DNA of 64,000 bases from contig CP065590.1 in the NCBI GenBank assembly GCA_016025055.1, positions 1,860,001 through 1,924,000 of the forward strand, in the 5' to 3' direction. A program made the position numbers and the translations under genes. Shown here one piece after another: positions 968 through 19,049 of this stretch. Numbering within the stretch: the stretch's first letter is position 1; each line of letters starts with the position of its first letter. The notes below the pieces were generated by a model. It did not search any database. It was not told where the DNA came from and saw only the letters and a list, made by a program, of their open reading frames with translations. This DNA comes from Chryseobacterium indologenes (GTDB lineage Bacteria > Bacteroidota > Bacteroidia > Flavobacteriales > Weeksellaceae).

Positions 968-1888
968 TCAGCTTTCAAGATAACGGTTTAAGGATTCCTG
1001 AAGATGGGTACGGATGTCATCAACTAAACATTTAGGTTCTAAAACAGTTACTTCCTTTCCGTAAGATAAGATCTCCTGCATAAAGTCATAAGTAGGATGA
1101 AGAAAGAATTCAAAATAAATCTCTTCGGTCGTTTCCTTGGTCTCTTTTTGGGATTGATGAAGAGGGAAGCTCCTGATATATTCTCCCTGATGACGACTAC
1201 ACTTTAATACAATTTTTTCAGGTTTTTGCTCCGTAAGATTCATCACTCCGAAAGCGTTTTTGAAATGCTCCCTGAAATTGTAATTATATTTTTCCCTGAA
1301 TTTGCTTTTGTCTACATCCAGATAATTGATTCTGTCTAATCCAAAAGATTTTAATGCTTTATCTTTGGTGTCAATCGCAATCAGGTACCATCTGTCCTTT
1401 GATTCTTTCAGAGCTAGAGGATGAACTTTGCGGGAAGTCATCAGCTTGTTCTTGTAATTGTAATGTTCAAAAGTAACGACTCTTTTGTTACGGATAGCAA
1501 AAAACAGATCGTAAAAGTGTTCCACTCCTGTTGGTTTTCGGCTTTCAAAGAAAATAAAATCTGAAAAGTCAGGATGAAGATTCAATGCATTACTTACCTG
1601 GAAAGACTCCAACAATTTTTGATTGTATTCATCCACTTCCATGATCGGACGGCTTTCGATATAGTAACGGTTGTCTCCTTTTTTCTTATTATGAATAGAC
1701 AGGTTAAAAAGATCAGAAATCTCACGGATATCCCTCTGCAAGGTACGGATAGAGTAGCTCTTGATGTCCGCATCCTGAAATTCAAAAGAGTTTAACAGAT
1801 AGCTCTCCAGCTGTGAATAGGTAGCCGGAGAACTTTCCAATCTTTTTATAATTAAGGCATATCTTGTCAGGTAAAAATCTTTTTTCAT
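968..1888 (-). CDS. WYL-domain transcriptional regulator
   Basis: 306 aa. The N-terminal ~80 residues form a YafY/DeoR-type winged helix (YALIIKRLESSPATYSQLESYL, IRTLQRDIREI). The middle carries the WYL domain (VHPLALKESKDRWYLIAID) and the C-terminus a WCX-like region. WYL proteins bind nucleic-acid or nucleotide ligands. Relatives such as BrxR and CapW repress phage-defence operons by binding inverted repeats, and PafBC responds to DNA damage. A TAnnTTTG element lies at 1906-1913 and a 17-bp inverted repeat at 1924-1940, only 36 bp from the ATG, which suggests autoregulation. The same repeat precedes the other transcription units of this island, so this protein is the obvious candidate to bind it; that link is inference. 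Confidence 0.88.
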   Translation of the reverse strand: MKKDFYLTRYALIIKRLESSPATYSQLESYLLNSFEFQDADIKSYSIRTLQRDIREISDLFNLSIHNKKKGDNRYYIESRPIMEVDEYNQKLLESFQVSNALNLHPDFSDFIFFESRKPTGVEHFYDLFFAIRNKRVVTFEHYNYKNKLMTSRKVHPLALKESKDRWYLIAIDTKDKALKSFGLDRINYLDVDKSKFREKYNYNFREHFKNAFGVMNLTEQKPEKIVLKCSRHQGEYIRSFPLHQSQKETKETTEEIYFEFFLHPTYDFMQEILSYGKEVTVLEPKCLVDDIRTHLQESLNRYLES

Positions 1889-1905
1889 GATCTAATTTTA
1901 TACAA

Positions 1906-1940
1906 CAAATATATGGGCTTAATACGACAAAACGTGTCGT
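1906..1940 (-). promoter_or_regulatory. Island operator/promoter site 1 (WYL gene)
   Basis: Inverted repeat ACGACAAAACGTGTCGT at 1924-1940 (half-sites ACGACA/TGTCGT, 5-bp spacer), then 10 bp, then TATATTTG on the minus strand (1906-1913), a match to the Bacteroidetes -7 consensus TAnnTTTG. The repeat would span about -22 to -38 and so cover the usual -33 position. Best-formed palindrome of the set. Confidence 0.75.
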
Positions 1941-2006
1941 GTTTTATTTTTTGTCGAACTTATTCTTCAGAAATTTACGTGGATTTCAAAAATTATATAA
2001 AATAAA

Positions 2007-2030
2007 AAACCATTTCCTTTGAAATGGTTT
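2007..2030 (-). terminator. Terminator after the 56-aa gene
   Basis: 10-bp perfect stem AAACCATTTC/GAAATGGTTT with a 4-nt loop, followed on the minus strand by a long T-rich tract. It lies between the 56-aa gene and the WYL gene, so the WYL gene is a separate unit. Confidence 0.8.
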
Positions 2031-2153
2031 CAACACAGGCCCCTGGCTGTCCGCTATTTTTGTGAATGGTGATTCAGAGTGATATGAAGATTCTGAAAAT
2101 GGTTATTAGTTTTTGGTGCGGAAAGCCTAGGAGCCGGATGTGTTTTACTGTAT

Positions 2154-2324
2154 TTACAAGGTGTCTTCTTCAAGAATATCATTCTCAAAATCCTCCCTGA
2201 AAAAGTGTTCAATGTCGTCGAGATAGTTTTCATAGTCCATCTCCGCATTTTCAATGTCTCCCCATTCTATAGTATAAGGGATTTCATCGAAGATGATATC
2301 TGAATTGTGATTGGTGGTTTCCAT
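2154..2324 (-). CDS. Small acidic protein, 56 aa, in the WYL island
   Basis: Open frame starting METTNHNSDIIFDEIP and ending LEEDTL. It is strongly acidic (about 19 Asp/Glu against 1 Arg and no Lys), with no signal peptide or membrane segment. Family unknown. Support for a real gene: it has its own operator/promoter (site 2, 2364-2398, about 40 nt upstream) and a strong terminator (2007-2030). An overlapping 66-aa frame in the same strand (2054-2254) has unnatural composition and is taken as a shadow. DNA-mimic or inhibitor-like functions are conceivable for such an acidic protein, but nothing in the sequence shows this. Confidence 0.65.
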   Translation of the reverse strand: METTNHNSDIIFDEIPYTIEWGDIENAEMDYENYLDDIEHFFREDFENDILEEDTL

Positions 2325-2363
2325 ATTTGAGATTGGGTGTTATTTTTTTGATTTTTTCTATTT

Positions 2364-2398
2364 CAAAAGTAGCGTTGGGAAGCGACAAAACTCGACGT
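2364..2398 (-). promoter_or_regulatory. Island operator/promoter site 2 (56-aa gene)
   Basis: GCGACAAAACTCGACGT at 2382-2398, 10 bp, then minus-strand TACTTTTG (2364-2371). One half-site is imperfect (CGACGT), but position and spacing match site 1. Confidence 0.7.
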
Positions 2399-2432
2399 AT
2401 TAAAATACTTTTCAAAAGAGTGAGATCGTTTT

Positions 2433-2987
2433 TTAAGAAAAATCCTTAATGTCTATTTCATCTGCCATGAGCATGATAATATCCAGTTCAGAAAGCATTG
2501 ATTTGAGTTTTACCCCTCCGATTTTTAAATCATTATCAGCAAGGATATACCACCAGATTCTTTGAATGAAATCTTCAAATTTCACTTCGGATGTATAGGT
2601 GAGTGCTTTTGTCTGAGATACTAATGCCAGTAACTGCCTGGCGATGTCTCTGCATTCATCCATTTTCCTTTCTTGGGGCAATAATACATTCAGAACGCAG
2701 TTTTGGGCATCATACAATAGATTGGCAGTGATTTTAAGTTGGTTTTTTTTGGCGTTAAAACCTCTTTCAGTACTAATTTTCCCTGCAAGAATCTTACTTC
2801 TGAATCCTGCCATTTCAGAAACTTCGCTGATGGTGTTGGCAGATAGAATGTCTTCTACAGCCTTTATCCAGGATACAGTTTTTTCAACAAAAAGAGGATC
2901 TTTTTTTCCCAAAGACGAAACTATTTCCGGAAAAGCCTGCAGTTGTTCTTTTAATTGTGAGACTAAGATAAATTGAGACTTTTTCAT
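2433..2987 (-). CDS. Uncharacterised 184-aa protein of the WYL island
   Basis: Not recognised. Cytosolic, mostly helical, no signal peptide or membrane helix. Features include an N-terminal helix (MKKSQFILVSQLKEQLQAFPEI), a basic middle (KILAGKISTERGFNAKKNQLKI) and a hydrophobic acidic tail (MLSELDIIMLMADEIDIKDFS). It follows the 227-aa gene with a 3-nt gap and has no operator of its own, so it is probably the last gene of the DUF2589 operon (4323 to 2433). Only context suggests a role: a partner of the two upstream proteins. Confidence 0.75.
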   Translation of the reverse strand: MKKSQFILVSQLKEQLQAFPEIVSSLGKKDPLFVEKTVSWIKAVEDILSANTISEVSEMAGFRSKILAGKISTERGFNAKKNQLKITANLLYDAQNCVLNVLLPQERKMDECRDIARQLLALVSQTKALTYTSEVKFEDFIQRIWWYILADNDLKIGGVKLKSMLSELDIIMLMADEIDIKDFS

Positions 2988-2990
2988 ACT

Positions 2991-3674
2991 TTATTCGGGA
3001 ATCAAAGTTTCTACAATATTTCCATTGATATCTTCATACCGTGACCATTCCATACCGGCTTCGCTCACACTCATTTTGGCGAAAATCAAGCATTTGACAT
3101 CAAGCTGCATCAATTTGCTGGCTTCAACGATAATTTCCTGATCTTCAATTTTTTCAATGACTCTTTTGGTCTCAAGAATAAGCCTGTTGGAAATGCTTTT
3201 ATAAAAAGTGTCAGGATTTACATATTTCCAGCTGAAATTGGAAAGCGACTTGCAAAACTCTACAGTGACTTTTGATATAGGCTCAAGGTATGAAATCTGA
3301 TCAATGGTTAGGGTTGGGGTATTTTCATCTCTGATCTTTGTCAGAATATCATGATATGCCGGTTCCTGCTTGATAAGAAACTCTTTTAAACTCTGATCAC
3401 TTTTAAGGTCTGTGGCGTCATAATCTGTTTTCGCAACTTTGATAATTTCATCATACATAAAATCTCTGAAAATCATTTTAGGTGAATTTCCGGCTGTAGC
3501 AAAGGGGATGGTAAGATCAACACTGCCTACTTTCATCCTCGGAATAGAAAAATGTTTTAATAAATCATCCTGTGCATATTCTTTGGCTATTTGGACCGTT
3601 TGTAAATCTGTCATTTTTCTTGCTTCAGCAATTTCTGAGACAATGCCTCCCAAATATTCTCGTAATTTTGGCAT
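2991..3674 (-). CDS. Uncharacterised 227-aa protein, distant DUF2589-like segment
   Basis: Start chosen at MPKLREYLGG (3674); a longer frame to 3734 only adds residues running into the upstream gene's end. A short segment near residues 45-60 (FSIPRMKVGSVDLTIPFA) resembles a segment of the neighbouring DUF2589 protein (LTIPALRIDEMTIDFNA): both have I-P-x-hydrophobic-basic followed by alternating beta-type residues, and both come after an N-terminal helix containing GG and IAEAR/IKAQ-like stretches. This suggests two diverged members of one family in tandem, which is my inference. The C-terminal half is helical and charged. No signal peptide. Lies between DUF2589 (73-bp gap) and the 184-aa gene (3-bp gap). 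Confidence 0.72.
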   Translation of the reverse strand: MPKLREYLGGIVSEIAEARKMTDLQTVQIAKEYAQDDLLKHFSIPRMKVGSVDLTIPFATAGNSPKMIFRDFMYDEIIKVAKTDYDATDLKSDQSLKEFLIKQEPAYHDILTKIRDENTPTLTIDQISYLEPISKVTVEFCKSLSNFSWKYVNPDTFYKSISNRLILETKRVIEKIEDQEIIVEASKLMQLDVKCLIFAKMSVSEAGMEWSRYEDINGNIVETLIPE

Positions 3675-3747
3675 AATAAGTTCTTTTTGGTGAATAAAAA
3701 ATTGTTTAAAATGGATGGCTGCCCAGGCAACCATCCAAAAAAGGTTA

Positions 3748-4323
3748 TTAAGGAGTTACCGGAGCTGCTGTAGCAACAATAGCGTCTTCCAGCATGTCCA
3801 TAATTCTCGCAAGCCCTGCAGGTAATTCATCATTGACAGCTTTTACATGTACTCCTAAAGTGTATGTTTTTTCTGTGGTTGATGTGCTTGAAGTAGTCTT
3901 TTTATAAGATGCAGAAGCGTTGAATTTAACTTTCCAAAATTTGGCACTTAAAGAAGCACTTCCCTGAAACTCGCTGGAAACATTCTGAGTTTCTACTGAA
4001 TTTAATTTTGCATTAAAGTCAATGGTCATTTCATCAATTCTTAAAGCCGGAATCGTGAGCATAGAAAGTAGCGGAACACTTAAAGTAACCTGAGACTGCA
4101 CAGGGGTTTCATTGCCCTGAGCAGGATTTGGTACTGTTTTTTTGTATACAAAATCTACGTATCTGAGCTTTGATGTAGCTCCGGTTCCTTCAAAACCAAC
4201 TTCTTTAATGAAATTTACCTGTGACATAGAAGCGTCATGCTGTGCCTTAATAGCGGCCTGCATAGGACCTCCGATGTAAACGCTGAAATCTAAACTGTTT
4301 AATTCTTGGACTAAATTTGCCAT
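3748..4323 (-). CDS. DUF2589-family protein
   Basis: 191 aa. The N-terminus (SLDFSVYIGGPMQAAIKAQ, then FIKEVGF) and the following beta-rich region (VTLSVPLLSMLTIPALRIDEMTIDFNA) match what I know of DUF2589, a family without known function. After residue ~110 comes a Ser/Thr-rich stretch (SSEFQGSASLSAKFWKVKF, TTSSTSTTEKTYTLGVHVKA), then an acidic helix (LARIMDMLEDAIVATAA). No signal peptide. It heads an operon with the 227-aa and 184-aa genes and has two operator/promoter sites upstream (sites 3 and 4) and a ~180-nt leader. The mixture of amphipathic helix and Ser/Thr-rich beta region could suit a membrane-acting or assembling protein, but that is speculation. Confidence 0.8.
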   Translation of the reverse strand: MANLVQELNSLDFSVYIGGPMQAAIKAQHDASMSQVNFIKEVGFEGTGATSKLRYVDFVYKKTVPNPAQGNETPVQSQVTLSVPLLSMLTIPALRIDEMTIDFNAKLNSVETQNVSSEFQGSASLSAKFWKVKFNASASYKKTTSSTSTTEKTYTLGVHVKAVNDELPAGLARIMDMLEDAIVATAAPVTP

Positions 4324-4507
4324 AATTCTAAAATTTTAAGGTTATTAATTGGTTAATATGATAGTTGTGCTAGCAGACTATATGTAATTGGGTAATAGAT
4401 ATCCTGTTTCAGTATGAGATCACTGAAGAATAATAGGGTATACTGAAAAGGATATTGGTTAGAAAGTAAGCTGTTTTAGCTTTGGTTTTCCTGGTTATTT
4501 GTTGATT

Positions 4508-4542
4508 CAAAGATAGTTTTATGCAACGTCAGAACTTGTCGT
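4508..4542 (-). promoter_or_regulatory. Island operator/promoter site 3 (proximal, DUF2589 operon)
   Basis: ACGTCAGAACTTGTCGT at 4526-4542, 10 bp, minus-strand TATCTTTG (4508-4515). The start site would lie near 4501, giving a leader of about 180 nt before the DUF2589 ATG; I find no ATG-started frame in that leader. Confidence 0.7.
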
Positions 4543-4578
4543 GTATTATTTTTTTTGAATTTTAATTTTTTAATACTT

Positions 4579-4612
4579 CAAAAGTAGGAGTGGAAGCGAC
4601 AAAAGTTGATGT
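4579..4612 (-). promoter_or_regulatory. Island operator/promoter site 4 (distal, DUF2589 operon)
   Basis: GCGACAAAAGTTGATGT at 4596-4612, 9 bp, minus-strand TACTTTTG (4579-4586). This is the only copy with 9 rather than 10 bp spacing and the weakest palindrome. It lies 70 bp upstream of site 3 in the same orientation, forming a tandem pair. Confidence 0.6.
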
Positions 4613-4635
4613 ATATAAAACTTTTCTGGAATTTT

Positions 4636-4682
4636 ATAAGCTAAAAAGCTTATTTAGAGCAATTATAAGCTAAAAAGCTTAT
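4636..4682. terminator. Tandem duplicated hairpins at the patatin stop codon
   Basis: Two identical 18-nt inverted repeats, ATAAGCT-AAAA-AGCTTAT, at 4636-4653 and 4665-4682. The second overlaps the patatin TAA stop (4679-4681). Both could terminate the patatin transcript; the exact duplication 29 bp apart is unusual. Confidence 0.55.
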
Positions 4683-5716
4683 ATTTTGTTTTTGATCAGT
4701 TTTTGAACAATTTGGTTCAATACCTCTCTGTTGTCATCAATATAGCTCAATCCGGCCTGGATCAGGTTTTCAATATTTGACCGTCTTACGTTATCCATGG
4801 CAGGAGAAGCGTTTTTTAATGATGGATTTAAGCGGTAATAATTCTTCTGATTCCGTAAACCCAATGTCTGAAACATCTGGCCAAGCTGATAATCTACAGT
4901 TTCTGCATTAGCAGACATCAGAATATCAATAATAGGATTCACCCAGCCTATTTTTCCTGCCTTTTCCAATCTTTTGAAAGAATAAGGCCTCGCTTCAATT
5001 CCTGTCCCGATCGATACGATAATCATATCATTTACCCCGGGATGGTTGGCTTTCTGATGGTTTTTTAAAACCTCGGCAAAAGGAATTTTGCGAGCTTCGG
5101 CATAAGCACAGAGTGCAGGATTATTGGCAAACATACCTCCGTCTATCAGGCTGAAGATCTGTCCGTACATAGATTTGATCTGTACGGGGCAGAAGTAGGT
5201 AGGAGCAGCTGAAGTGGCCCTGCAAATATCTTTTACATAAAAATTATCTGTACTGAGATGTGCTTTCCATGAGTTGAAGATCTTTGCCCGTCTGTTTTCT
5301 ATATCATAACTTGTTATTAAACATGGTTTTATTAATTCTTTAAGTTCTAAATTTCCAAAAAAATCATTCAGGTTTTTTTGAAGTGAATCCTGAGAGATTC
5401 TTTCATTCAATAATCCAAAAGGATTGACCAGTTTTTCCCAAAAGGAAACCTGGAAAATATCGCCGCCCTTTTCTGCATACAATTCTAATCCTTTCTGGAT
5501 AGAATACTTTGCTTTTCGGGTTTCATCGGGACATAGAATAATAGATGCAATCAGCCCTCCGGTACTGCTGCCTGCTACCAGATCAAAATAATCTCCGAGT
5601 TTGGCGCTCGGTTTATCATAATACTGGAGCTGTTCTTCTATGTAGCGTAGAATAATGCAGGTGATGATACCTCTTATTCCACCCCCGTCCAAAGAAAGAA
5701 TGGTTGTCTTTTTCAT
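4679..5716 (-). CDS. Patatin-like phospholipase
   Basis: 345 aa from MKKTTILSLDGGG. All patatin hallmarks are visible: oxyanion loop DGGGIRG (residues 10-16), nucleophile elbow GSSTG with Ser51, and the catalytic DGG at 192-194 (SLIDGGMFANNP). These enzymes hydrolyse acyl chains of membrane phospholipids. There is no signal peptide, so it acts from the cytosol, as do the CBASS effector CapV and other toxic patatins; no cyclic-nucleotide synthase is nearby. The open frame extends to 5836, but that ATG lies upstream of the predicted transcription start; an ATG at 5806 is an alternative that would add a basic 30-residue extension. Own operator/promoter at 5834-5868. Part of the WYL island between the M15 peptidase and the DUF2589 gene. 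Confidence 0.88.
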   Translation of the reverse strand: MKKTTILSLDGGGIRGIITCIILRYIEEQLQYYDKPSAKLGDYFDLVAGSSTGGLIASIILCPDETRKAKYSIQKGLELYAEKGGDIFQVSFWEKLVNPFGLLNERISQDSLQKNLNDFFGNLELKELIKPCLITSYDIENRRAKIFNSWKAHLSTDNFYVKDICRATSAAPTYFCPVQIKSMYGQIFSLIDGGMFANNPALCAYAEARKIPFAEVLKNHQKANHPGVNDMIIVSIGTGIEARPYSFKRLEKAGKIGWVNPIIDILMSANAETVDYQLGQMFQTLGLRNQKNYYRLNPSLKNASPAMDNVRRSNIENLIQAGLSYIDDNREVLNQIVQKLIKNKI

Positions 5717-5833
5717 GTGATATTTTAATTGTTTTTTTACAAGGAGACATGCAATCTTAAATCCTGAGAAGCTCTTTTTTATCACGAAAAATTCTTTAGA
5801 TTTCATTGCTTTTTTTATTGTTTTCTTGTAAAG

Positions 5834-5868
5834 CAAAGGTAGGACGGGGAAGCGACAGAACGTGTCGT
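5834..5868 (-). promoter_or_regulatory. Island operator/promoter site 5 (patatin)
   Basis: GCGACAGAACGTGTCGT at 5852-5868, 10 bp, minus-strand TACCTTTG (5834-5841). Predicted start near 5828, leaving a leader of about 110 nt to the chosen patatin ATG. Confidence 0.72.
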
Positions 5869-5958
5869 ATATTATTTAATTTCTACCATGAGAGAATTAA
5901 AAAATAACATAATTATCCTTATCCCTGGGCATTTTGATTAATGTTTTCCAACTGGTTT

Positions 5959-6396
5959 TTACAAGACCTTTTCGGGATGGAATATTCTTTTTTCAAAATG
6001 GGGAAGGTCTTTAAACGTCTTCCAGTTTCCTCCCCAATCCCAGCCATGTCTGGCAAAAATTTTAACACACTCATACCAGTCAGCTACTTTATCATTATCC
6101 CAGTCTTTCGCAGTATCCCAACTTGCGATTTTGCCATCGATTATCAGACAGATATCTACGGCAAGACCATAATTGTGAATGCTCTGTCCTGCTTTTGCAT
6201 TGGTAACTTTTTTTCCTGAAGTCAGACGTCCTATTGCATATAGTTTCTCCTGTTCCTCAAAAGATCTTAATCCCTGCGTGATCCGTACCTTTGCTCTTCC
6301 GGTAAGTGCTTCATCACAATCCTGGATGATTTGTCTCACTTCTTTCCTTATTACAGGATGTAGCTTTTGAATTCTTTCTAATGTTACGTTGTCCAT
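5959..6396 (-). CDS. M15-family peptidoglycan peptidase (endolysin-like), no signal peptide
   Basis: 145 aa. Zinc peptidase motifs of the VanY/CwlK/T5-endolysin group: SIHNYGLAVD (His74, Asp81) and DLPHFE (His133), plus a conserved GLRSFEEQEKLYAIGR segment. Members cut peptide bonds in the peptidoglycan stem (L-Ala-D-Glu or D-Ala-D-Ala). Length and the missing signal peptide are typical of phage endolysins and lysis enzymes that need another factor to reach the wall. No phage structural genes are nearby. Own operator/promoter (6417-6451) only ~20 nt upstream. With the patatin it gives the island one enzyme against membrane lipid and one against the wall. Confidence 0.86.
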   Translation of the reverse strand: MDNVTLERIQKLHPVIRKEVRQIIQDCDEALTGRAKVRITQGLRSFEEQEKLYAIGRLTSGKKVTNAKAGQSIHNYGLAVDICLIIDGKIASWDTAKDWDNDKVADWYECVKIFARHGWDWGGNWKTFKDLPHFEKRIFHPEKVL

Positions 6397-6416
6397 GATG
6401 TTATTCTATTGTTATT

Positions 6417-6451
6417 CAAAAATATAGAATGAAAGCGACGAAACTTGACGT
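6417..6451 (-). promoter_or_regulatory. Island operator/promoter site 6 (M15 peptidase)
   Basis: GCGACGAAACTTGACGT at 6435-6451, 10 bp, minus-strand TATTTTTG (6417-6424). Marks the upstream end of the island; the next gene is divergent. Confidence 0.68.
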
Positions 6452-6621: not shown

Positions 6622-8201
6622 ATGCATACCGTCTTACCCTTCTTTCTGGCCATGATTGCTGCCGTGGTATTATTGAACCTCTGGGCAACCAAACTGAAAA
6701 TTGCCTATCCCATTTTACTGGTTGTGTTTGGCCTGCTGGTCAGTTTTGTACCCGGGTTACCTACCGTAAAAATTAATCCTGATCTCATCTTTTTTATTTT
6801 CCTGCCGCCTTTATTATTTGAGGCGTCATGGTCGATTTCCTTTAAAGAAATGAAAAGATGGTGGAGGATTATAGGGAGTTTTGCCTTTCTGGTTGTCTTT
6901 TTTACTGCTTTGTCGGTTGCCGTTGTGTCCAACTATTTTATTCCCGGGTTCAGTATTGCACTGGGATTTTTGCTGGGGGAATTGTCTCTCCGCCAGATGC
7001 TGTAAGTACCGGTGCTATTATGAAATTCGTGAAAATTCCAAAAACGACTGCTGCCATTCTGGAAGGAGAAAGTTTGTTAAATGATGCTTCTTCCCTCATC
7101 ATTTTCCGTTTTGCGCTAATAGCTGTGGGAACAGGACAGTTTGTCTGGCAGGAAGCATCTCTTACTTTTGTATGGATGATTGTTGGTGGAGCCGGCCTTG
7201 GATTATTACTTGCCTGGATTTTTGTGCAGATTCATAAACGCTTGCCTACAGATGCTGCTTCAGATATTGCATTGACTCTTATCGAGCCTTATCTGATGTA
7301 TTGGCTGGCAGAGCAGTTCCATAGTTCAGGGGTATTGGCTGTGGTGTGTGGAGGTCTGTATATGTCGGGTAAAAGATTGATTTTTTTAAGCAGTACGAGC
7401 CGGATAAGGGGATACAGTGTTTGGGAAAGTTTTGTGTTTATTCTGAACGGAATTGTATTTTTAATCATCGGCCTGGAACTTCCCGAAATTGTAGGCGGAT
7501 TACGCTCGGAAGGAATTCCTTTAAAAATAGCCATTAATTACGGAGTAATAGTAACGGGTATCCTTATTGCTGCCCGAATCATAAGTTCTTACGCGGCAAT
7601 GCTTGCGACCATCATTTTCCGCCCGGGTGTAGCTCCCCGTGCTTCCTCAAACAGAAGGCGCCTGATGATGCCTCTTATACTGGGCTGGACAGGGATGAGG
7701 GGCGTGGTTTCGCTGGCAGCCGCACTGGCTATTCCTATTAGCCTAAATGGGGCTCCTTTTCCCAATAGAAATCTTATTTTGTTTATCACTTTTGTCGTTA
7801 TATTGCTTACTCTTCTGGTTCAGGGGCTCACATTGCCTTATATTATAAGATTCGGACATGTATTTGATGATTTTATGGATGAAGAAAAAGAAGAGAAAGC
7901 CCGTCAGGACATTAAACTTAAATTAAAACAGCATGTTTATCATTTCCTTAAAAATAAACATGAAAATGAACTGCAAAGTCATGCCGGTCTTGAACGGATG
8001 CTAAAACATTGGGAAGAAAAAAATAAAGCCAACGACACGGAATGGATGAGTGAAAAAAATAAAGTGATTTTTCTTGAAATGCTTGAAAGCCAGAGGCAAT
8101 TTCTTTCAGAGTTGAATAAAGATGTTTCCGTCAATGAGGAAATTATCCGCCATCAGTTGTACCAAATAGATCTGGAGGAGGAGCGTTTGAGGATGATTTA
8201 A
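6622..8201 (+). pseudogene. Na+/H+ antiporter (CPA1/NhaP type), one frameshift
   Basis: About 526 aa when joined. Roughly 12 membrane helices start at MHTVLPFFLAMIAAVVLLNLW. The CPA1 motifs are FFIFLPPLLFEASW and, after the break, GGIVSPPDAVSTGAI and LEGESLLNDASSL (the ND of the ion site). A soluble charged tail of about 120 residues follows (EEKEEKARQDIKLKLKQHVYHF). It would exchange cytosolic Na+ for protons. The frame breaks at the G5 run 6975-6979; a sixth G gives LLGGIVSPPDA, the expected family sequence. Probably a sequencing deletion. Ends at a strong bidirectional terminator. Confidence 0.85.
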
Positions 8202-18056: not shown

Positions 18057-18086
18057 CCCCACTAATTTGGATTTATATATTATTGA

Positions 18087-18857
18087 ATGAAAGGATTTTA
18101 TAGCGTAATAGGCCTTGTGTACATGGTAACGACATCATTCTACATTTCTCCAAAAGGGGCGGTAAAGAATGAAAATTTTGAGACAGCAAAAACAGCAAAA
18201 ATTGCTGCAGCTGGCGACACGAAATCTGAGAAGAATACAACTGCTGTTTCTTCATCAGAAGCATTATACCAATCAATTGCATTTGATCCGGAACATGAAC
18301 TGAACTATGAAGTATTCTCAAAGGCATTGACTGGTTACGAAAACTTAAAGAAAGCAGGATTGCTTACTCAGGATTCGCATTTACTGACTATCTGCGATTT
18401 TTCTATGTCTTCCAACACCAAAAGACTTTGGATCATTGATCTTAATGATAAAAAAGTACTGTTCAACTCACTGGTTGCCCACGGTAAAAATACAGGCGAA
18501 GAATTTGCCACGAATTTTTCTAACACGGAAAGTTCGCGACAGAGCAGCATGGGATTTTATATCACGGATGCAACCTACCAGGGAGATAACGGATACTCAT
18601 TAAGATTACTGGGGATGGATAAAGGATTCAATGATGCAGCCTACAGAAGAGCTATTGTAATGCATGGAGCAGATTACGTAAGCGATTCATTTGCAGCAAT
18701 ACATAAGAGAATCGGGAGAAGCTGGGGATGCCCCGCAGTACCTAGGGAATTATCACAATCAATGATCAATACGATAAAAGGAAGAAATTTATTATTCATC
18801 TATTATCCTGATCAGAATTACCTTTCCTCGTCAGAGTGGTTGAAATCGCAAATATAA
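18087..18857 (+). CDS. Murein L,D-transpeptidase-like protein (YkuD_2)
   Basis: 256 aa. Signal-like N-terminus (SVIGLVYMVTTSFYISPKGA). Catalytic domain: VAHGKNTGE, FSNTESSRQSSMGFYIT, AIVMHGADYVSD and the His/Cys motif GRSWGCPAVP with the nucleophile Cys. This is the YkuD_2 group of Bacteroidetes/Proteobacteria, whose members form or trim meso-DAP cross-links; exact reaction not shown. Periplasmic. Ends at a strong terminator. Confidence 0.88.
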   Translation: MKGFYSVIGLVYMVTTSFYISPKGAVKNENFETAKTAKIAAAGDTKSEKNTTAVSSSEALYQSIAFDPEHELNYEVFSKALTGYENLKKAGLLTQDSHLLTICDFSMSSNTKRLWIIDLNDKKVLFNSLVAHGKNTGEEFATNFSNTESSRQSSMGFYITDATYQGDNGYSLRLLGMDKGFNDAAYRRAIVMHGADYVSDSFAAIHKRIGRSWGCPAVPRELSQSMINTIKGRNLLFIYYPDQNYLSSSEWLKSQI

Positions 18858-19014: not shown

Positions 19015-19049
19015 CAAAAGTATTAACGGGTAACGACAAAAGAAGTCGT
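19015..19049 (-). promoter_or_regulatory. Orphan island-type operator/promoter site 7
   Basis: ACGACAAAAGAAGTCGT at 19033-19049, 10 bp, then minus-strand TACTTTTG (19015-19022). Same half-site, spacing and orientation as sites 1-6, yet 12.6 kb away and not in front of any sizable minus-strand gene. Between 18858 and 19183 only this, two hairpins and a 25-aa frame are seen. Confidence 0.6.

Follow-up and report, generated by a model that had tools for sequence, protein, structure and literature searches.

The window analysed here, a stretch of 64,000 nucleotides from Chryseobacterium indologenes (contig CP065590.1, positions 1,860,001 to 1,924,000 of the forward strand), carries near its start an island of seven minus-strand genes (window positions 968-6396). 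They encode a WYL protein, three proteins of 56, 184 and 247 amino acids (aa), a DUF2589 protein, a patatin-like phospholipase and an M15 peptidase. A preliminary description had proposed that these genes share one inverted repeat, by which the WYL protein, in the manner of BrxR and CapW, would control an envelope-damaging set for lysis, phage defence or stress killing. The repeat is a 17-bp palindrome, RCGWCA-N5-TGWCGY, with six island copies (at 1924, 2382, 4526, 4596, 5852 and 6435) that stand before five putative transcription units: the WYL gene, the 56-aa gene, the DUF2589-247-184 genes, the patatin gene and the M15 gene. The individual features are the following:

968..1888, minus strand: WYL-WCX transcription regulator of 306 aa, proposed DriD-like activator (Pfam WYL 3.7e-14, WCX 2.7e-8)
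1906..1940, minus strand: predicted operator (1924-1940), 10 bp and -7 box TATATTTG, the WYL gene's own promoter (0 mismatches)
2154..2324, minus strand: acidic protein of 56 aa, no assigned function (related small open reading frame (ORF) in 37 of the 80 islands described below)
2364..2398, minus strand: predicted operator (2382-2398), 10 bp and TACTTTTG, for the 56-aa gene (1 mismatch)
2433..2987, minus strand: 184-aa protein, gene 3 of the DUF2589 module (no Pfam match over cut-off; adjoins DUF2589 in other Bacteroidota)
2991..3674, minus strand: 227-aa protein, gene 2 of the DUF2589 module (ORF to 3734, 247 aa; no Pfam match over cut-off)
3748..4323, minus strand: DUF2589 protein of 191 aa (PF11655 1.4e-32; no membrane segment by hydropathy)
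4508..4542, minus strand: predicted operator (4526-4542), 10 bp and TATCTTTG, for the DUF2589 operon (0 mismatches)
4579..4612, minus strand: second, weaker predicted operator (4596-4612), 9 bp from TACTTTTG (2 mismatches)
4679..5716, minus strand: patatin-like phospholipase of 345 aa (PF01734 5.8e-24)
5834..5868, minus strand: predicted operator (5852-5868), 10 bp and TACCTTTG, for the patatin gene (0 mismatches)
5959..6396, minus strand: M15 L-Ala-D-Glu-type endopeptidase of 145 aa (PF13539 4.3e-19)
6417..6451, minus strand: predicted operator (6435-6451), 10 bp and TATTTTTG, for the M15 gene (1 mismatch)

That the seven genes share one inverted repeat was confirmed: at up to three mismatches the palindrome has seven matches in the 64 kb, six of them in the island, whereas 100 shuffles gave 0.76 matches on average and four at most. 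All six island copies face TANNTTTG, the -7 box of Bacteroidota promoters, five of them at exactly 10 bp; the sixth (4596) is the outer of two palindromes before the DUF2589 unit and stands at 9 bp instead. The repeat is common to the five units of the island but not bound to it: when the palindrome was searched for together with TANNTTTG at 10 bp, allowing three mismatches, 20 places were found in the 4.92-Mb genome, and none with the reversed pattern used as control. A survey of 197 genomes of the family with a looser pattern, at no more than one mismatch, revealed sites in 110 of them, 921 in sum as compared to 10 for the reversed control, and 49 of the 50 members of the genus have 6-30 sites each. 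At 100 island loci of relatives we counted 806 palindrome cores, both strands included; as the palindrome is scored once per strand, about half of these are expected to lack a box. Among the 359 cores with a box, TANNTTTG follows at a spacing of 10 in 340, and all other spacings from 0 to 31 together account for 19. They belong to promoters of constant layout and to a regulon that extends over the whole genome. This regulon is real and conserved; its regulator is well supported, though unproven. The seventh match in the window, at 19033, is the weakest (3 mismatches; site 19015-19049, minus strand, before TAATACTTTTG) and has no clear target, the same-strand ORFs of at least 50 aa within 1 kb downstream (18073-18327 and 18368-18550) being located inside a plus-strand gene. 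Similar sites are present in the genomes G108 and G159.

A logo of 377 sites lacks TTTG at a distance of 17-21 bp upstream of the -7 box, i. e. a -33 element. Since a fixed spacing and an absent -33 element are needed by an activator but not by a repressor, we infer that the WYL protein is probably an activator. Repression of the BrxR/CapW kind through inverted repeats is not supported: the repeat sits in the -33 place, where DriD-type activators bind, and an operator upstream of the -7 box at a fixed spacing is not placed to block the promoter. CapW is a WYL protein with inverted repeats before several units. BrxR resembles the island in the same two respects, and its repeat lies downstream of its -10 box (PMC9122601; here and for all other reports cited, statements refer to those parts of the text that were accessible). 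Repeat position, genome-wide regulon and gene content all distinguish the island from both systems. PADLOC hits among the seven genes were limited to the WYL protein, found with WYL, Cas3c and WYL/Csx1 models, and the patatin, found with models of phospholipase effectors.

How closely the sites follow the WYL protein can be read from its distribution. The protein exceeds the cut-offs of both PF13280 (WYL) and PF25583 (WCX), its WYL/WCX part matches PafBC and several WYL-domain PDB entries, and no Pfam helix-turn-helix was found in its N-terminal part at E up to 0.1. Defined by at least 59% identity, orthologues occur in 71 of the 197 family genomes, and each of these 71 has sites (1-30, median 12); of the 126 genomes without an orthologue, 87 have none and the maximum is five. 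In the genus, 49 of 50 genomes have the orthologue, and the fiftieth, G154, has neither sites nor a patatin match, yet keeps another WYL gene. Outside the genus, at least two sites are present in 21 of 22 genomes with the orthologue as compared to 22 of 125 others (p 1.4e-12, genomes treated as independent). Since genomes are not independent, contrasts within genera are the stronger argument: genomes without the orthologue have no sites in g1 (1/1), 0-2 sites in g9 (14 genomes) and no sites in 31 of 33 cases in g26 (p 5e-5 for g9 and 1.4e-5 for g26, again with genomes treated as independent). In relatives, the operator architecture also precedes the WYL gene itself: of 55 distinct upstream sequences 53 have it (all except L133 and L134), and the gene is likely autoregulated. 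It is very probable from these patterns that, as the preliminary description had it, one WYL protein controls the set.

A WYL activator to which this protein can be compared is DriD of Caulobacter crescentus. DriD is activated by single-stranded DNA (ssDNA), and its sites cover part of the -35 element and keep a constant distance to the -10 element. Three promoters are printed, and the targets named are didA, bapE, recJ, dnaG and CCNA_03891/01149, its own gene not being activated (PMC12340889). Like the window's protein, DriD is a WYL and WCX protein, and its site at CCNA_03891 reads ACGAC-N7-GTCGC. We scored the DriD promoters with the Chryseobacterium matrix against 2000 shuffles each. The score of the CCNA_03891 promoter (ACGACCGTTTCTGTCGC, 10 bp, CAATCT) was equalled by one shuffle and that of the didA promoter (ACGTCCGTTTCTGGCGC, 10 bp, CAAGGT) by eight; to regard CAATCT and CAAGGT as -10 elements is our own reading. 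The two scores, 11.5 and 7.7, are lower than in almost every Chryseobacterium site (median 27.7, 5% point 21.9). Two of the three published DriD promoters match the palindrome at the same spacing. The window's operators thus share with DriD sites the placement in the -35/-33 position at a fixed distance, and half-sites and spacing are as in CCNA_03891 and similar in didA. The regulons differ: for DriD the accessible text names few targets and states that self-activation does not occur, whereas 6-30 sites per genome with toxins and envelope enzymes as targets are seen here. PafBC and SiwR of mycobacteria are WYL activators that act at the -26 region (PMC11804915, PMC10693628); PafBC differs in being a heterodimer with a non-palindromic motif (PMC6789036), and SiwR in controlling an adjacent operon. 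PafBC is activated by ssDNA as is DriD (PMC11804915), and because of this a DNA-damage signal may by analogy be proposed for the window's protein as well; its motifs S152-R153, W167-Y-L and L184-D-R are no more than suggestive of ssDNA activation.

The conserved core of the island consists of the WYL protein, the patatin and the M15 endopeptidase. A scan of genome contigs (84,980 species) with the patatin gave 118 relatives, and all counts out of 80 or 77 rest on the best 80, which belong by their record titles to Chryseobacterium or other Weeksellaceae, the closest named Chryseobacterium being up to 98% identical. M15 was found at 77 of these 80 loci; the operator precedes the patatin gene at 10 bp in 79/80 cases and the M15 gene in 64/77. 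A patatin orthologue (at least 68% identity) is present in all 71 genomes with the WYL orthologue as compared to two of the 126 others (G004 and G055), and nine more of the 126 have patatin homologues with 43-47% identity; among the 71 genomes, identities range from 59 to 100% for WYL and from 68 to 100% for patatin. Independent scattering of the genes in relatives, which would have spoken against a joint system, was seen for the DUF2589 trio only (14 of 80 islands, and also away from WYL); WYL and patatin stay together in 71/71 genomes. The patatin has the motifs G49-S-S-T-G and D192-G-G, and its matches include patatin-17 and, at 1.6e-21, CapV in the PDB and a phospholipase effector in PADLOC (9.3e-60). 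M15 matches Ply500 (2vo9, 3.2e-23) and ChiX (5opz, 3.2e-5), and groups by sequence with the L-Ala-D-Glu peptidases of phages and with ChiX, which serves as endolysin in a Serratia cassette. The view of an envelope-damaging set is supported at the level of enzyme families, the core being a wall enzyme and a phospholipase. Neither enzyme has a hydrophobic N-terminal segment (by hydropathy) or a tail domain of the type 9 secretion system (T9SS; by Pfam). The two enzymes were also seen together with BIG, a family of large proteins (see below), on a 67-kb mobilizable Chryseobacterium plasmid (NZ_CP044508.1, L253) and, with three operator-like sites by the looser pattern, on a 67,029-base contig of G004 (L324), a genome without a WYL orthologue that belongs to the 12 such genomes with three or more sites considered below.

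In contrast to the core, the cargo behind the patatin gene varies: it may be the DUF2589 trio, BIG, fibre-like proteins with a common N-terminus, or toxin-like proteins, and there are islands almost without cargo (e. g. L123, L126 and L127). Within the 8 kb fetched around each of the 80 relatives, BIG (about 1160-1380 aa, no Pfam match) was found in 35 islands and the WYL gene itself in 22; Tox-MPTase4 was over cut-off in three of seven island toxin-like proteins scanned. Distal sites, at which genes were classified by likeness of the sequences read unless a Pfam family is named, lead in this genome to Rhs-type loci (RHS_repeat in L046 and L054, further ones by likeness), one locus with Tox-REase-7 (site with 3 mismatches), a surface protein (DUF285) that bears a T9SS tail, and others. 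From four relatives we fetched 40 stretches; 34 had a site and a first gene, in five the pattern of the script detected no site, and one lacked an ORF. The 34 first genes comprised 12 Rhs/T9SS-type loci, four members of one 231-aa family, three and two members of two large families without assignment, two BIG, two tailspike-like, one Tox-MPTase4, one DUF285, one HNH and six others. As judged from these sequences, the regulon is rich in toxin-like genes (Rhs, metallopeptidase, nuclease). Polymorphic toxins near T9SS substrates have been described in Bacteroidetes (PMC7073777), and the regulon resembles these TANFOR-class systems in that respect; TANFOR itself was not among the matches listed for the regulon proteins scanned, and no WYL regulator or lysis enzymes are described with such toxins in the accessible text (PMC7073777). 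Two tandem, near-identical proteins of 203 aa with a glycine-rich hydrophobic end (L056, 6523-7134, and an upstream duplicate) each follow an operator-like promoter (3 mismatches) and look bacteriocin-like by eye. At L055, an AAA ATPase gene (2634-3671) behind an operator-like site (3 mismatches) overlaps the end of an opposite-strand gene that appears subtilase-like by eye.

A regulon of this composition has a counterpart in Yersinia entomophaga, where RoeA, a single activator, induces a lysis cassette together with many toxins in a fraction of the cells, which burst; the related Serratia cassette comprises the endolysin ChiX, a holin and spanins, and the title of one work in the reference list describes RoeA as PhoB-like (PMC10847048). 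The regulon described here shares the plan of this RoeA/YenLC type 10 secretion system (T10SS), with one putative activator, candidate lysis enzymes and numerous toxin-like genes: its M15 protein resembles ChiX and is an L-Ala-D-Glu-type endopeptidase without signal peptide (by hydropathy only), and the same predicted operator stands at wall and membrane enzymes and at toxin-like loci. It differs in that the holin and spanins of Serratia were not found among the seven island proteins, the toxin families are others, and RoeA is PhoB-like.

The site architecture, the regulon, the co-occurrence of its genes and the enzyme families can be read from the sequences; binding, activation, the ssDNA signal, lysis and release are what we infer from them. 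We see roughly an even chance that a DriD-like activator switches on a regulon for antagonism that includes enzymes for release by lysis, comparable to that of RoeA and the T10SS. The WYL protein would bind the palindrome in the form ACGWCA-N5-TGWCGY where a -33 element would otherwise lie, with exactly 10 bp to TANNTTTG, also at its own promoter, where autoregulation could create a steep switch. It would turn on (i) the conserved cytoplasmic pair of M15 endopeptidase and patatin phospholipase, (ii) the variable island cargo, i. e. the DUF2589 trio and, in relatives, fibre-like, BIG and toxin genes, and (iii) the distal Rhs-type, metallopeptidase and nuclease toxin loci. The trigger may act only in those cells that are under stress or have damaged DNA, and M15 and patatin would then open the envelope of the producer and release cytoplasmic toxins, as in the soldier cells of Y. 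entomophaga. It is speculation that the patatin or the DUF2589 trio stands in the holin's place. A large unstudied regulon of Chryseobacterium and its relatives can now be given a putative regulator, together with an operator and a rule for its promoters, so that its members become predictable from sequence; literature searches, with subscription papers outside their coverage, gave no description of it. If our idea is true, DriD-type WYL control would extend from Caulobacter to the Bacteroidota and from the DNA-damage response to warfare.

Several observations weigh against this interpretation. The bapE promoter of DriD is unconvincing, its best match lying elsewhere and being equalled by 43 of 2000 shuffles, and the likeness to DriD is weak: PDB entries that we take to be DriD match with E ~6e-4 to 3e-3, in the WYL/WCX part only. 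The statistics on co-occurrence count genomes as independent, and 12 of the 125 genomes without the orthologue carry three or more sites (3-5). In eleven of them a WYL homologue is present at about 33-39% identity, and the twelfth, G069, gave none up to E 1e-10. There was no DNA-repair gene among the distal first genes read, part of the regulon having been annotated, so that the proposed DNA-damage signal draws on analogy within the family. Hydropathy showed no membrane segment in the seven island proteins, to which the search was confined, and nothing like a holin or spanin was found among them. By eye, the Rhs loci begin with signal-peptide-like genes, and T9SS tails are present in some of the distal genes, for which reason the distal toxins may not need lysis for their release. 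The genome of the window has no BIG gene, and its island has neither a fibre nor a toxin gene. Finally, the window's M15 protein is shortened: its reading of 145 aa (166 aa in 72 of 77 relatives) apparently results from a frameshift after the HFE motif that affects the C-terminal end. In the antiporter gene adjoining the island the reading frame is likewise broken, its parts at 6622-7005 and 6858-8201 being in two frames where relatives have a single one of about 526-582 aa, and because both genes are affected an assembly (indel) error is possible. Regulation by SOS/LexA was considered as well and set aside on the lack of repair genes among the distal first genes read in the annotated part of the regulon.

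The main rival to lytic release accepts the WYL-activated antagonism regulon and regards M15 and patatin themselves as weapons, exported as cargo or on a fibre/BIG particle against the wall and membrane of rivals, with no lysis of the producer. We consider this possible, though rather unlikely. It would fit with the toxin cargo that, where present, lies beside both enzymes, with the usual presence of an own operator for each enzyme gene (79/80 for patatin, 64/77 for M15), and with the lack of a visible holin in the hydropathy of the seven proteins. Against it, there is no obvious immunity gene between M15 and patatin, since 71 of 77 islands have no same-strand gene of at least 80 aa there (a search aimed at immunity genes was not made); moreover, both enzymes lack a hydrophobic N-terminus and a T9SS tail domain, and M15 is close to self-acting endolysins and to ChiX.

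An anti-phage island acting by abortive infection, in which the WYL protein senses phage-derived nucleic acid and membrane and wall damage kills the infected cell, is an improbable explanation. BrxR-family WYL proteins do control defence islands (PMC9122601), and the patatin is near to the phospholipases of the cyclic-oligonucleotide-based anti-phage signalling system (CBASS), to judge from its family and its PADLOC and PDB matches with effectors such as CapV. However, the patatin reaches only 159 bits with the CBASS_lipase NCBIfam model (cut-off 200), no nucleotide cyclase is encoded by the seven genes, in line with the preliminary description, many of the sites are distal and precede toxin-like genes, and the operator lies upstream of the -7 box rather than downstream of a -10 box as in BrxR (PMC9122601). 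The suggestion of phage defence is not supported by these data. Still a little less probable is that the island is a leftover of prophage lysis and tail-fibre genes, domesticated and sharing a promoter without a joint function: M15 resembles phage endolysins, the fibre genes seen in relatives have a phage-like appearance by eye, one island is flanked by a tail-like gene cluster on a contig assigned to viruses, BIG relatives occur in two viral contigs and the island is also found on a plasmid, but the joint retention of WYL and patatin in 71/71 genomes, the exact operator spacing before 79/80 patatin genes and the lack of capsid or packaging genes among the window's seven argue against it. That another regulator binds the palindrome and the WYL gene is merely one of its targets is slightly less probable again, despite two further WYL genes in this genome and the 12 of 125 genomes, including G069, with 3-5 sites but no orthologue, since in g1, g9 and g26 sites are absent or few wherever the orthologue is missing, though many of these genomes keep other WYL genes (e. 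g. G154), and since half-sites and spacing equal those in promoters of a known WYL activator.

The DUF2589 protein (113.6 bits with PF11655, gathering score 23) belongs to a trio that was always complete in the 14 of 80 islands in which it occurs. The 227-aa form of the 247-aa ORF corresponds to the second ATG, the start used by relatives, and these recur beside DUF2589. In the phylum, DUF2589 was found in 28 of 395 genomes (0/14 control genomes); larger regions were read from 14 of the 28, nine with the complete trio, one with DUF2589 and a relative of the 247-aa protein, three with several DUF2589 genes alone and one showing only the two partners. The 184, 247 and DUF2589 genes are a module across the phylum that occurs also away from WYL. 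G501, from another family of the same order, combines BIG, a toxin-like gene, two more genes, two fibre genes, DUF2589, the 247 and 184 genes and a CHAP enzyme. BIG is present in 15 and DUF2589 in 28 of the 395 genomes, and both occur together in six (p 2.4e-4, kinship ignored). Ten proteins chosen by eye, nine DUF2589 neighbours and the toxin-like protein of G501, included over cut-off two CHAP (same genus), two PG_binding_1, one GH25, one subtilase and one TcdB-type toxin; wall enzymes and a toxin near DUF2589 are thus a lead and not an enrichment test. DUF2589 hereby gains a testable context as a three-gene module that lies in several genomes beside large toxins or unrelated wall enzymes. 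It is tempting to extend lytic release by the DriD-like activator to a soldier-cell programme of Bacteroidota, in which the self-activating WYL switch would commit a subpopulation to bursting and to a hitherto undescribed toxin particle of BIG, fibre proteins and interchangeable toxins, with the DUF2589 trio as a holin stand-in free of membrane segments or as a particle part that would also work with CHAP, GH25 and other wall enzymes across the phylum; as a whole, we regard this extended scheme as doubtful. The AlphaFold model of DUF2589 was not usable (predicted local distance difference test (pLDDT) 43), and a relation to the 247-aa family or to BIG was rejected by profile comparison (probability 1-2%). 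DUF2589 occurs in one phage record and at two loci in viral contigs, one of them beside M15 and patatin and the other on a contig of 194 kb. A gene for a 1398-aa SpvB/TcdB-type toxin follows the trio in a distant genome that belongs to the same class (L307, 186-6818).

BIG itself was absent from phage records and present at two loci in viral contigs. An AlphaFold model of a BIG protein (1159 aa) had a pLDDT of 57, and the likeness to Cry toxins, phage tail proteins and others proposed by Foldseek was discarded as not interpretable, with template-modelling scores of 0.05-0.09 by query length. Parts of BIG were found on 12 plasmid records, including those of rhizobia, Streptomyces and a haloarchaeon; on a haloarchaeal Natronorubrum plasmid (L256, 7309-12364), a BIG-related gene is located near another patatin-like phospholipase gene. 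At the 3' end of the window's patatin gene, there are two identical 20-bp palindromes, TTATAAGCTAAAAAGCTTAT (4634-4653 and 4663-4682), which could perhaps be terminators.

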